Assembly: GCA_021107855.1 (NCBI GenBank)
Contig: JAIORZ010000002.1
Span: 309,425 to 373,424, forward strand
DNA: 64,000 nucleotides
From: an archaeon
Lineage (GTDB): Archaea > Nanobdellota > Nanobdellia > Pacearchaeales > GW2011-AR1
Reading direction: 5' to 3'
Shown here: piece after piece, positions 47,656 to 52,972 of the stretch
Layout: each line of letters begins with the position of its first letter
Position numbering within the stretch: the stretch's first letter is position 1
Program-made: the position numbers and the translations under genes
The notes under the pieces: generated by a model
Database searches by the model: none
Told to the model about the DNA's origin: nothing
The model's input: only the letters and a program-made list of their open reading frames with translations

Positions 47656-49545
47656 ATGGACAGAAAAGAACTAATAAAAAAATACATCGAATTCTTTAAA
47701 TCGAAAGACCACGCCCAAATTAAAAATTCATCTCTTGTTCCAGAAAACGACCCAACAGTTCTCTTCACAACCGCCGGAATGCATCCCTTAGTCCCGTTCC
47801 TTCTGGGAGAAACACACCCTCAAGGAAAACGAGTAGTAAATGTACAAAGGTGTATTAGGACGGGAGATATAGAGGAAGTAGGTGATACGACGCATCATAC
47901 ATTTTTCGAAATGCTTGGGAATTGGTCGCTTGGAGATTACTTCAAAAAAGGGGGAATTGAAATGTCTTATGAATTTTTAACAAAAACTCTAGGCTTAAAA
48001 AAAGAAAGGTTAGCGGTATCGGTTTTTAAAGGAGATGAAAATGGTCCTCGCGATAAAGAGTCAGCACAAATTTGGAAGGACCAGGGAGTTTCAGAAGAAC
48101 GAATCGCATATCTACCAGCAGAAGATAATTGGTGGGGTCCTGCTGGGCAAACCGGTCCATGCGGTCCATGCACTGAAATGTTCTATTGGAAATTAAATGA
48201 TGAGCCAGCCCCAAAAAAGTTTGACCCCGAAGACGATAATTGGGTAGAAATTTGGAATGATGTTTTAATGGAATATAATAAAGATTCTGAGGGAAATTAC
48301 AACAAAGCCTCCCAGCAAAACGTCGACACTGGGATGGGAACAGAAAGAACAGTAGCGGTTTTGGATGGCTTGGAAGACAACTATTTAGCAGACATGTGGA
48401 AACCAATAATCGAAAAAGTAGAAACCATTTCAAAACACACATATAGCGAAGGTGAAACAATAAAGAGAGCAATGCGAATCATCGCAGACCACATCAAAGC
48501 CGCAACATTCATAATCAACGACGGCATAACCCCCAGCAATTCCGACCAAGGCTATGTCCTAAGAAGATTAATCCGAAGAGCAATCCGTTACGGGAAAACA
48601 TTAGGAATCGAATCATTCACATCTCAAGTAGCAAACGCAATATATCCGATTTACGATGATTATGAATTGGACAAAGAAAAAATCAATTCGGAATTAATAA
48701 GAGAAGAAGAAAAATTTAACTTGACTTTAGAGAACGGATTGAAAATAGCAGAAAGAGTATTCAAAAATAAAACACAAATCAGCGGTGAAAAATTCAACAA
48801 ACTAATGAATGACCCAAACAAAGCGGACTTAATAGGAAGGGTATTTGAAAAAAGAGAAAATAAAAAAGACTATTCATTAAAAAATCCTAAACTATCTGAG
48901 AAAGAAATTGACGACGCCACCATAAATGGGAAAGAAGCGTTTTTACTTTATCAAAGTTATGGGTTCCCTATTGAAATGATAGACGAACTAGCCATGGCAA
49001 AAAATCTAGTTGTAAATCATAGGGATTTCAAAAACGAATGCAAGAAACATCAAGAGCTCTCCCGTACAGCCTCAGCAGGAAAATTCAAATCAGGACTAGC
49101 GGACAACTCCGGACAAACAACAAAACTCCACACCGCATCCCACCTCCTAAACGAAGCCCTAAGAGAAGTCCTCAAAGACAAAAACATTTCTCAACGTGGT
49201 TCCAACATCACCCCAGAACGCCTAAGGTTCGACTTCAACTTCAACCGAAAACTGACCGATGAAGAGAAGCAAGAAATTGAAGACTTAATTAACGAAAAAA
49301 TAAAGGAATCAATCCCCGTCGAACTTCAAGAGATGTCGGTTCAAGAAGCAAAGGAAATGGGAGCACACGGGATGTTCGATGATAAATACGGAGACAAAGT
49401 AAAAGTCTACAAAATCGGAAATTTTTCCAAGGAAATTTGTGCTGGTCCACATGTCCAAAATACTTCAGAACTTGGGACATTCAAAATCAAAAAAGAAGGA
49501 TCTTCGTCTTCTGGTGTTAGAAGAATCAAAGCAACCTTAAGCTGA
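47656..49545 (+). CDS. alaS: Alanyl-tRNA synthetase, short (bacterial/CPR-like) form without C-terminal C-Ala domain
   Basis: TTAGMHPLVPFLLGETHPQGKRVVNVQRCIRTGDIEEVGDTTHHTFFEMLGNWSLGDYF; editing HTASH and CAGPH motifs; ends at the SAD domain (629 aa). Confidence 0.92.
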   Translation: MDRKELIKKYIEFFKSKDHAQIKNSSLVPENDPTVLFTTAGMHPLVPFLLGETHPQGKRVVNVQRCIRTGDIEEVGDTTHHTFFEMLGNWSLGDYFKKGGIEMSYEFLTKTLGLKKERLAVSVFKGDENGPRDKESAQIWKDQGVSEERIAYLPAEDNWWGPAGQTGPCGPCTEMFYWKLNDEPAPKKFDPEDDNWVEIWNDVLMEYNKDSEGNYNKASQQNVDTGMGTERTVAVLDGLEDNYLADMWKPIIEKVETISKHTYSEGETIKRAMRIIADHIKAATFIINDGITPSNSDQGYVLRRLIRRAIRYGKTLGIESFTSQVANAIYPIYDDYELDKEKINSELIREEEKFNLTLENGLKIAERVFKNKTQISGEKFNKLMNDPNKADLIGRVFEKRENKKDYSLKNPKLSEKEIDDATINGKEAFLLYQSYGFPIEMIDELAMAKNLVVNHRDFKNECKKHQELSRTASAGKFKSGLADNSGQTTKLHTASHLLNEALREVLKDKNISQRGSNITPERLRFDFNFNRKLTDEEKQEIEDLINEKIKESIPVELQEMSVQEAKEMGAHGMFDDKYGDKVKVYKIGNFSKEICAGPHVQNTSELGTFKIKKEGSSSSGVRRIKATLS

Positions 49546-49966: not shown

Positions 49967-52900
49967 TCATTCCAAATAAACAGAAGGCATCCCGGGTTTA
50001 GCTTTCTTCGCCATATTCTTCGGGTCAATCTTCTCAGAATCATTAACCGTAAAAACTTCCACCTCCCTCTCAATCTCCGCCCCAATCCTACCAACATCAA
50101 CACCCTCCCTCTCAAACGGCATCACATAAACATAAACCTTCTTTGTGCCCTTTTTCAAAATCCCCTTAACCCTCTCAATAATCTTACCATTCAAATCCAT
50201 CATCTCAGACTTCTTCTCAATTTTAGACTCATCAAATTCAGGCCAAGAAAAATCAGAAACAAAAACTTTGTTCCCCAACTTCTCCCACAATTCCTCACTA
50301 ATATGTGGACAAATCGGACTCAACAACTTCAAAAATTTCTCCAATGTATCCATAGAAGCCTCCTTCTCAGACGCAATCAAATCAAACAACTCCCTAATCT
50401 CAATCGTCGCCTTTCTATACAAAAATTCGTCATAATACTTCGAAACATTTCTAACAACCTCATTAACTTTAGATTCCAATTTTGCGGAATCCTTATCAAT
50501 TTTAACACTATCAAAAACTCCAAAAATTCTCTTGACAAATCTCAAGCTCCCAATAATCCCCCTCTCACTCCAATCAATATCCTTATCAGGAGAAGCCAAA
50601 CTGGACAAGAAAAACCTCGCAGTATCGATGCCATATTTATCAGAAACGCTTTCCGGCAAAACAACATTCCCCTTAGACTTACTCATCTTACTCCCATCCT
50701 CAGCATGAAGCATACCCTGATGAAACAACGAAGCAAACGGCTCTCCAAAATCAAACATTCCTAAATCCCTCAAAAATTTAACATAAAACCGAGAATAAAT
50801 CAAATGCATACACGCATGCTCCTGTCCCCCAACATACCTATCCACCGGACACCAACTCTTAACCTTCTCAGAATCAAAAATACTCTCATCATTATTCGGG
50901 TCACAAAATCTCAAAAAATACCACGAAGAATTAACAAAAGTATCCATAGTATCCGTCTCACGCTTAGCCTTCTTCCCGCACTTCGGACATTTAACATTAA
51001 CCCATTTCTCATTCGTCAGCAACGGATTGCCGTCGCCAAACTTAACCTTCCGAGGCAACTTAACAGGAAATTCGTCTTCGGGGACAGGAACGGCACCGCA
51101 ATCTTTACAATGTATGATGGGGATAGGTGTCCCCCAATATCTCTGTCTAGAAATCCCCCAATCTCTCAATTTAAAATTGACGACCTTTTTACCTAATCCT
51201 TTTGATTCCAAATGCTGGGTGATTCTTTCTTTGGCTTCGTTGTTATTCATTCCGTTGAAATCGCCTGAATTGACAAGATCGCCTGAATCAACATAAGCCT
51301 CTTTAGAAATATCTCCACCCTTAACGACTTCCTTAACATCAATCCCATACTTTCTTGCAAACTCAAAATCCCTCTTATCATGTGCTGGAACCCCCATAAC
51401 CATCCCACTACCATAATCAGCAACGACAAAATTCCCAACATAAACGGGAATCCTCTCGCCATTAATAGGATTAACAGCATACGAACCACTAAACACACCC
51501 TTCTTCTCCATATCCCCTAACTCCTTCTCAGAAACACTCCCAAGTCCTTTTAAAAATTCTTCGACCTTCTCTCTCTCAGAATCCTTAACCAAATCCATCA
51601 ACTTTTGATGTTGAGCGGAGACAACCATAAATGTAACTCCAAACAAAGTATCAGGACGGGTTGTGAAGATTGGCCATGTTTGGCTCCCAATAATTTTGTC
51701 TAACAACTCGGGGAATTCGTTTGTTCCCATATGTTTTTTAATAAAATGTCCATGATTTTTAAGTTCAATCAACTCCCCTCCAAGTTCTTCATTATATAAT
51801 TTTGAACCTTGCATTATTTCTTCATAATCATTATTAGTTGTAAAAATAATTATCTCGCTAATATTTTTTTTAATATCTTTATCAATTTTAAAATCATAAA
51901 AGACCTCTGCCTTTTCATTATAATATTTAAGTACACATTTTTTAGCAGGTGCAATTAAAATTAATTTTTTAATTTTTGTTTTTGTTTCTCCCAGCCATCT
52001 AACTAAAAAAGCACATCCTAAACTATGTCCAATCAATATTGTATTTTCATTAACTCCTAATTTCTCAAATTCATTCTTCCAATCTTCATAAACCGGGTTA
52101 TTATAATTCGGCATTAGTGGAATATCCACTTTTATTCTATCTTCTATTTTATTTTTTATCCACAACATCCAAGGTTGCTCATTTGGTTCAAAATACCCTT
52201 TGTCACTATTAGCATTCAAAAATTGACTCCCATGCACAATCACAACATTTCCCTTCTCCCCCCCCTCCACCTCAAGCATAATCTCCGTTCCATAACTCTT
52301 CCCAATCCAATTCCTCTGCATCGTCTTAGTCGTCTCCGGCCAATCAATATCATTCAGACCCTCATACAACTCATCAGCGTAATCCGTAATCTTAAAAAAC
52401 CACTGCTTCAAATGCTTAACCTCGACGCTACTGTCCTCATGCCTCCAACAATTCCCATCATGAACCTGCTCATTCGCCAAAACAGTATTACACTCAGGAC
52501 ACCAATTAACAGCCGACTCCTTCTGATAAGCCAGCCCCTTCTCAAACATCTTCAAAAAAATCCACTGGTCCCACCTATAAAATTTAGGGTCATCCGTAGA
52601 AATCATCCTAGACCAATCGTAACTCAACCCCAACGCTTTTTGCTGCTTAATATAATTGGCAATAGACTTTTTGTTATAATCCTCGGGATGCTCCCCAGCT
52701 TCAATCGCGGCATTCTCGGCAGGCAACCCCAAAGCGTCATATCCCATAGGATGTATAACATTAAACCCGCTCATAATTTTAAACCGAGCCAAAATATCCC
52801 CAATCGTATAATTCCAAGCGTGCCCCATGTGCAAACCAGACCCCGACGGATAAGGAAACATCTCAAGAACATAAAACTTCTCCCGTGGGTCATCATCCCC

Positions 52901-52972
52901 AGTCTCAAATATCTTAGCCTCCGCCCAACGCTTTTGCCACTTCTTCTCAATCCCCTTAAAATTAATCTCCAT
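49967..52972 (-). CDS. leuS: Leucyl-tRNA synthetase (bacterial type) with an internal alpha/beta hydrolase (RBBP9/YdeN-like) insertion
   Basis: YPSGSGLHMGHAWNYTIGD (HIGH), TTRPDTLFGVTF (editing), MSKSKGNVV (KMSKS). Residues about 242-430 = VVIVHGSQF...ILIGHSLGCAFLVRWL...FTTNNDYEEIM...NHGHF. Confidence 0.95.
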   Translation of the reverse strand: MEINFKGIEKKWQKRWAEAKIFETGDDDPREKFYVLEMFPYPSGSGLHMGHAWNYTIGDILARFKIMSGFNVIHPMGYDALGLPAENAAIEAGEHPEDYNKKSIANYIKQQKALGLSYDWSRMISTDDPKFYRWDQWIFLKMFEKGLAYQKESAVNWCPECNTVLANEQVHDGNCWRHEDSSVEVKHLKQWFFKITDYADELYEGLNDIDWPETTKTMQRNWIGKSYGTEIMLEVEGGEKGNVVIVHGSQFLNANSDKGYFEPNEQPWMLWIKNKIEDRIKVDIPLMPNYNNPVYEDWKNEFEKLGVNENTILIGHSLGCAFLVRWLGETKTKIKKLILIAPAKKCVLKYYNEKAEVFYDFKIDKDIKKNISEIIIFTTNNDYEEIMQGSKLYNEELGGELIELKNHGHFIKKHMGTNEFPELLDKIIGSQTWPIFTTRPDTLFGVTFMVVSAQHQKLMDLVKDSEREKVEEFLKGLGSVSEKELGDMEKKGVFSGSYAVNPINGERIPVYVGNFVVADYGSGMVMGVPAHDKRDFEFARKYGIDVKEVVKGGDISKEAYVDSGDLVNSGDFNGMNNNEAKERITQHLESKGLGKKVVNFKLRDWGISRQRYWGTPIPIIHCKDCGAVPVPEDEFPVKLPRKVKFGDGNPLLTNEKWVNVKCPKCGKKAKRETDTMDTFVNSSWYFLRFCDPNNDESIFDSEKVKSWCPVDRYVGGQEHACMHLIYSRFYVKFLRDLGMFDFGEPFASLFHQGMLHAEDGSKMSKSKGNVVLPESVSDKYGIDTARFFLSSLASPDKDIDWSERGIIGSLRFVKRIFGVFDSVKIDKDSAKLESKVNEVVRNVSKYYDEFLYRKATIEIRELFDLIASEKEASMDTLEKFLKLLSPICPHISEELWEKLGNKVFVSDFSWPEFDESKIEKKSEMMDLNGKIIERVKGILKKGTKKVYVYVMPFEREGVDVGRIGAEIEREVEVFTVNDSEKIDPKNMAKKAKPGMPSVYLE

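Follow-up and report, generated by a model that had tools for sequence, protein, structure and literature searches.

A serine hydrolase domain inserted at the CP1 hairpin of an archaeal leucyl-tRNA synthetase, and its scattered recurrence in other genomes

The window (the whole 64,000-nucleotide stretch of archaeal DNA that was analysed) encodes a bacterial-type leucyl-tRNA synthetase (LeuRS) that carries an RBBP9/YdeN-like serine hydrolase domain at the hairpin leading into its CP1 editing domain. The explanation we favor, with moderate confidence, is that an autonomous and catalytically competent hydrolase has been captured in frame at a permissive loop, recurrently and non-vertically, and that the fusion is two enzymes in one protein. 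Computation established the anatomy of the fusion, the recurrence of the insert, the retention of its catalytic triad, its non-vertical distribution, the adjacency of standalone relatives to leuS and the use of several host proteins. The first-pass annotation had presented the fusion as a single oddity. That description proved too narrow, since the insertion is recurrent, hops between lineages and involves at least two LeuRS sites as well as other essential proteins.

The fused synthetase and its inserted domain

The leuS gene is a single open frame that is free of stops throughout. Its product belongs to the bacterial LeuRS family by its TIGR00396 score, and the HIGH and KMSKS signatures and the CP1 editing residues are all present, with key residues in invariant columns. 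The features of the gene are as follows, in the order of the protein.

49967..52972, minus strand: leuS, bacterial-type LeuRS of 1001 amino acids with the hydrolase inserted (TIGR00396, 908 bits, cut-off 548)
52820..52831, minus strand: HIGH-type signature HMGH, residues 48-51 (H48, G50 and H51 invariant)
52265..52300, minus strand: first strand of the hairpin connecting to CP1, residues 225-236, flanking the insert on the left (predicted strand in the full-length model; hairpin continuous in relatives with an empty site)
51686..52249, minus strand: serine hydrolase insert, residues 242-429, at the site called S1 (PF06821, E=1.4e-16; pLDDT 80; Foldseek RBBP9/YdeN)
52022..52024, minus strand: nucleophile S317 in GHSLG (Ser in 22 of 22 LeuRS inserts and 2 of 2 UvrB inserts)
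51827..51829, minus strand: catalytic acid D382 (among 22 LeuRS inserts, D in 16 and E in 6)
51746..51748, minus strand: catalytic histidine H409 (His in 22 of 22 inserts)
51662..51682, minus strand: second strand of the hairpin connecting to CP1, residues 431-437, flanking the insert on the right (predicted strand)
51206..51679, minus strand: CP1 editing domain, residues 432-589, intact, with invariant T437/T438 and D532 in VPAHD (PF13603, E=3.6e-57)
51305..51319, minus strand: S2, the relatives' second insertion point, residues ~552-556, empty in the window's LeuRS (segments of 119-202 residues in relatives)
50675..50689, minus strand: KMSKS signature, residues 762-766 (M763-S766 invariant)

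Outside the insert the protein is thus an ordinary LeuRS by family score, signatures and editing residues, as had been supposed. It has every signature motif and CP1 editing residue of the known bacterial enzymes (TIGR00396; T. thermophilus 1h3n/2bte), and a Foldseek search with the whole model gave T. thermophilus LeuRS as the best match; the window's version differs in having its CP1 hairpin extended at the tip by ~190 residues and in being found in an archaeon. The window's genome (936 kb, 85% complete) has this single LeuRS, the remaining matches of a search against the genome itself reaching only ~1e-20, which suggests that the LeuRS is functional. A second PF06821 gene was not found in the same genome. 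Among named organisms its closest relatives are Nanoarchaeota/Pacearchaeota MAGs, and the source is therefore probably a DPANN archaeon of this type. The neighboring alaS (window 47656-49545) adjoins leuS in the window and in many relatives, and the window's AlaRS is lengthened near residue 378 by a stretch of ~45 residues that is absent from most relatives.

In profile and homologue alignments, similarity to LeuRS broke off at about residue 239 and picked up again at 431-434. The segment between, residues 242-429, matched the Ser_hydrolase family PF06821 with 61.3 bits (cut-off 22) over profile positions 6-166 of 172, and matched B. subtilis YdeN (1uxo) by sequence at 2.7e-11. AlphaFold modeled the insert alone at pLDDT 80 and pTM 0.83, and a Foldseek search of the PDB with this model gave as best matches a phenylalanine-bound RBBP9 (7oex, E=1.6e-9) and YdeN (1uxo, TM 0.78), placing the insert in the alpha/beta-hydrolase fold. 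Profile, sequence and structure searches therefore agree with the earlier proposal of a complete RBBP9/YdeN-like domain. The insert resembles RBBP9 and YdeN in fold, size, triad order and whole-domain match; the solved members of that family are standalone proteins, whereas here the domain sits inside LeuRS. In a full-length AlphaFold prediction (24-row alignment, mean pLDDT 85) the hairpin strands 225-236 and 431-437 form on both sides of an alternating beta/alpha domain, and the chain folds as a LeuRS plus a separate alpha/beta domain. The insertion point is the tip of the hairpin between the catalytic core and CP1, which bears out its placement at the root of the editing domain.

The insert has the Ser-Asp-His order and the GxSxG nucleophile elbow of its family, and S317, D382 and H409, numbered correctly in the first-pass annotation, form a triad that is intact by sequence alignment. 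Their positions are identical across four inserts of distant organisms, and Ser, an acid (Asp or Glu) and His were all present in 24/24 inserted copies (22 LeuRS, 2 UvrB), the evidence for the triad being residue order and conservation across copies. Among the LeuRS inserts the triad was retained in 22/22 at identities down to 27%. This retention argues for selection on activity, as judged from the alignments, and the presence of the triad in every copy checked counts against mere decay. Both halves of the protein look intact, as would befit a two-enzyme protein. The insert is indeed AT-rich, its GC3 being 0.207 against 0.455 in the rest of leuS and the lowest of the window genes measured (others 0.23-0.48), and its composition suggests that it reached the window's genome fairly recently. 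In other genomes the GC of the insert averages only 4.3 points below that of the host gene.

Recurrence and inheritance of the S1 insert

We searched 200 genomes of the window's order for PF06821 and then fetched long frames; 148 genomes of the order had a listed LeuRS segment, and most of the genomes are MAGs of 60-95% completeness. A PF06821-like domain was found at the same point of LeuRS in 21 genomes of the order, counting the window's own (G000, G002, G010, G014, G018 (partial), G038, G045, G065, G067, G085, G091, G103, G112, G113, G139, G161, G162, G184, G189, G190 and G199). Outside the order the same point was occupied in Woesearchaeota (L014, G367, G226, G318 and G409) and in Uhrbacteria, a CPR bacterium (L003). 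The S1 segment lengths were bimodal, with empty sites of 12-33 residues (one of 5) and filled sites of ~130-250, one split alignment excepted.

In a hydrolase tree of 81 rows the window's insert fell in a clade of 27 rows (clade A, support 99/94; 26 rows and 92/89 when the basal G091 insert is left out). The clade also contains 11 further LeuRS inserts, the two inserts in UvrB, all nine standalone genes adjacent to leuS and four standalones from elsewhere. Inserts of types B and C form a second clade of nine rows (100/99) found only inside LeuRS, and the G085 insert (type D, on a long branch) groups among ordinary standalones; subfamilies A, B/C and D all use the same LeuRS site. The clade-A standalones read M-NVVIVHG...EFPELLEEILK-stop and the inserts are that open reading frame minus start and stop, so the insert corresponds to the whole ORF by its matching start and end motifs. 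Standalone members of the clade abutted leuS on the same strand in 9/15 cases in the order, against 0/41 for other PF06821 genes (Fisher p=7e-7). Most of the leuS-adjacent copies overlap leuS, and one of the nine is split over two frames. An adjacent copy and an insert were both present in G139, G162, G184 and G199, and standalones fetched from other orders were not next to leuS. The split gene lies in G146 (L247, 4304-4884, minus strand), whose leuS itself has a HAD-like domain at S1; decay or a sequencing error may account for the split.

The distribution of the insert did not follow descent. Forcing the 12 clade-A LeuRS inserts into one clade was rejected on the insert tree (p-AU 1.7e-35). 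On an insert-free LeuRS tree (98 rows, quick LG+G4) the 12 clade-A carriers needed 12 changes, at least 10 of them forced by strongly supported branches, while any S1 insert needed 23 and the S2 types 24; these counts, on which the non-vertical reading for the LeuRS core relies, are lower bounds with empty LeuRSs partly sampled, and they merge gains with losses. Shuffled S1 labels fared no worse on this tree, and insert and core identities were hardly correlated (r=0.15). Aligning LeuRS from related genomes, as the first-pass annotation had suggested, thus revealed a scattered insertion that does not track the LeuRS tree.

Sister alleles gave a direct view of filled and empty sites. G199 and G198, 82.5% identical in DNA, are filled and empty, respectively; the empty hairpin reads SVNDKKWKV and the filled one holds a whole hydrolase. 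Further such pairs are G103/L006 and, for a HAD-like insert, G001/G011. By eye the empty/filled pairs had irregular junctions and no target-site duplication, and neither a recombinase nor a terminal repeat was found with the inserts. An (I/L)SN linker was present in 10/14 clade-A S1 inserts and absent from the leuS-adjacent standalones, and part of the S1 alleles therefore probably had one origin. A single ancestral insertion with vertical inheritance was rejected on the AU test against one clade of clade-A inserts, but the linker still marks some S1 alleles as homologous; to judge from the sequences, that origin was probably followed by losses and exchanges, and perhaps by gene conversion involving the standalone genes. 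A viral source was set aside because a scan of viral contigs for close relatives of the insert found none.

Further insertion points, domains and host proteins

Inserts of at least 45 residues were present in 47/161 non-redundant LeuRSs, a count that reflects a search for carriers and is not a frequency, and nearly all were at S1 or S2. Besides hydrolases, S1 held HAD-like domains (G001, G008 and G146) and a domain we call U1 (G100). S2, which lies inside the editing domain, held NUDIX domains (10 cases), U1, a second such domain, U2, and a nucleotidyltransferase-like domain (G016); the clade-A-type hydrolase also occupied S2, in G237, G287 and G483. A third point, S3, at the zinc knuckle, held U2 in G159; S2 and S3 were assigned by pairwise alignments. 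The NUDIX box is mostly intact in the S2 inserts of at least 10 relatives (L124, L125, L116, L014, L126, L235, L236, L238, L240 and L245). U1 and U2 change site within LeuRS, U1 occurring at S1 and S2 and U2 at S2 and S3 (A1/A2 alignments; L232, L233, L279 and L290), and in a pair of sister LeuRSs U1 sits at S1 in G100 but at S2 in G107. Save for one marginal match, no U2 was found outside LeuRS. Pfam returned nothing for U1, U2, the third-site segment of G119 or a HEPN-looking N-terminus in G117. The LeuRS of G119 (L290) combines U1 at S2 with a zinc-knuckle segment that is ASCH-like by eye, with no Pfam support. Two MAGs have two LeuRS copies each, G100 (frames of 828 and 960 amino acids) and G138 (821 and 840), which could be contamination or true duplicates.

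The same domains were found in other proteins. The hydrolase lies inside UvrB of G008 and G015 (L112, 2716-5265, minus strand, and L113, 2253-4907, minus strand), and the 746-amino acid UvrB frame of G009 has a different insert of ~80 residues near residue 170. A HAD-like domain was found inside AlaRS at L297 (334-2316, minus strand) and L300 (859-3003, plus strand) and fused to the N-terminus of uL22 at L294 (1003-1923, minus strand). The DxD motif is degenerate in the HAD inserts (DAVH/DAIH/DAIN). About seven further AlaRS-sized frames look to hold a HAD-like insert too. PF06821 proteins were also seen with a HEPN-looking N-terminal helical domain (weak PADLOC matches, none in Pfam), with an apparent C-terminal NUDIX domain or as tandem pairs, at the following fusion or tandem loci.

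L178, 2395-3393, minus strand: PF06821 fusion or tandem
L179, 1794-2651, minus strand: PF06821 fusion or tandem
L134, 1483-2454, plus strand: PF06821 fusion or tandem
L328, 4041-5186, plus strand: PF06821 fusion or tandem

Origin, possible function and meaning

On the reading we prefer, a small gene would have been captured in frame, from its codon 2 to its last codon, at the tip of the surface hairpin between the core and CP1. Because the hairpin strands and the active sites stay intact, the fusion should leucylate, edit through CP1 and carry the hydrolase. The insert-bearing allele would not be ancestral to LeuRS and would be gained, lost and exchanged quickly, the likely routes being capture from standalone genes (often leuS-adjacent in the order) and leuS alleles passing horizontally between genomes; a handful of small enzyme domains would settle in this way in permissive loops of LeuRS (S1, S2 and S3), AlaRS, UvrB and others. 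We infer that the hydrolase is active and that the LeuRS still works, and the hydrolase presumably acts on small free-amine aminoacyl compounds rather than serving leucylation. Against this explanation, the shared linker means that many S1 alleles may have one origin rather than being fresh captures, the recurring link between the hydrolase and leuS points to something beyond chance tolerance, and no insertion mechanism is visible at the filled and empty sites.

The association with leuS could instead mark a dedicated LeuRS partner that clears away wrong or unwanted aminoacyl products of LeuRS, whether these are on tRNA-Leu, on adenylates or on small amines. It would act in cis as an insert and in trans as the product of an adjacent gene. 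The excess of standalones abutting leuS, and the use of one site by subfamilies A, B/C and D with B/C confined to LeuRS, speak for such a role. Human RBBP9, the Phe-bound match above, removes N-terminal aromatic residues, needs a free alpha-amine and forms trapped adducts that include Leu/Ile (PMC8866121), and the title of a reference cited in PMC7730578 reports RBBP9 as a valacyclovir-activating enzyme; by analogy with this chemistry an aminoacyl-directed activity is plausible for the insert. The alpha-amine-binding Glu of RBBP9 was discarded as evidence, as it aligns in the window's insert (YYNEK) and not in other clade-A inserts. We nevertheless regard a dedicated partner as unlikely, because close relatives manage without the hydrolase, standalones from other orders lie away from leuS, turnover is rapid, and unrelated domains at the same sites together with the hydrolase in UvrB mean that proximity to CP1 alone is no argument for editing.

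The scatter of the inserts is also what a mobile or selfish domain would produce, if some undescribed process placed stop-free cassettes at preferred sites of essential genes in an intein-like pattern without splicing. A few families are indeed re-used (U1 at S1 and S2, U2 at S2 and S3, the hydrolase at S1, S2 and in UvrB, the HAD-like domain at S1, in AlaRS and on uL22), and U1 sits at different sites in sister LeuRSs, but the irregular junctions lack any recombinase, terminal repeat or target duplication that we could find and ordinary recombination with selection could yield the same pattern; we find this process improbable. A broader proposal, which we hold to be speculative, is that the serine hydrolase, HAD, NUDIX, U1, U2 and other domains form a class of mobile elements, undescribed so far and without splicing, that in this group of archaea would move as whole stop-free ORFs between favored loops of essential proteins (LeuRS S1/S2/S3, AlaRS, UvrB and uL22), behave like inteins in populations and add working enzymes to the translation machinery. 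Self-protection, with inserts destroying conflict effectors or antibiotics of the nucleotide or aminoacyl kind that target LeuRS, would explain rapid turnover and suits small hydrolases or NUDIX-like enzymes in an antibiotic target, LeuRS being that of the agrocin 84 toxin (PMC5059758). It seems very unlikely, given HAD inserts that have DAVH in place of DxD, related domains in UvrB and on uL22, and a PADLOC search that matched neither the insert nor U1 nor U2, on which a defence system was also rejected. The break in GC at the junctions might suggest an error of assembly or annotation, or a stretch that is excised from the transcript or the protein. The chance of this is negligible, because the architecture is repeated in many independent genomes (among them L001/G103, G002, G010, G045 and L003), which rules out the chimeric assembly that the first-pass annotation had named as a possible refutation, and because there is no intein domain, there are no splice residues and the standalone homologues are ordinary genes.

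Inteins are the closest parallel for the S1 insert in their in-frame insertion into essential genes, sporadic distribution and empty and filled sister alleles. They differ in that the insert has no splicing domain, splice-junction residues or homing nuclease and is an ordinary enzyme that probably remains in the protein; it gave no Hint match, and it starts with N242 and ends with IIG, whereas an intein has Cys or Ser first and His-Asn last. The NCBIfam family NF040702 (ileS_w_GNAT) is likewise an aminoacyl-tRNA synthetase with a small extra enzyme domain, but both the synthetase and the enzyme are different. We know of no documented scatter or hopping for synthetases with extra enzymatic domains such as this one. 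A search of open-licence PMC text found no published LeuRS with a hydrolase, NUDIX or HAD insert.

Domain insertions in aminoacyl-tRNA synthetases are usually viewed as rare, old and family-defining, CP1 itself being one. In the present case complete enzymes come and go at the same loops of an essential synthetase from one sister species to the next, and sister alleles with filled and empty sites allow direct tests of what domain insertion costs, what it brings and by which route it happens. Synthetases of outlying length in archaeal and CPR genomes are not necessarily misassembled. If LeuRS products are the substrate of the hydrolase, the synthetase would have a second quality-control activity tied to it; if they are not, the fusion would show how freely essential enzymes host passengers in reduced genomes.
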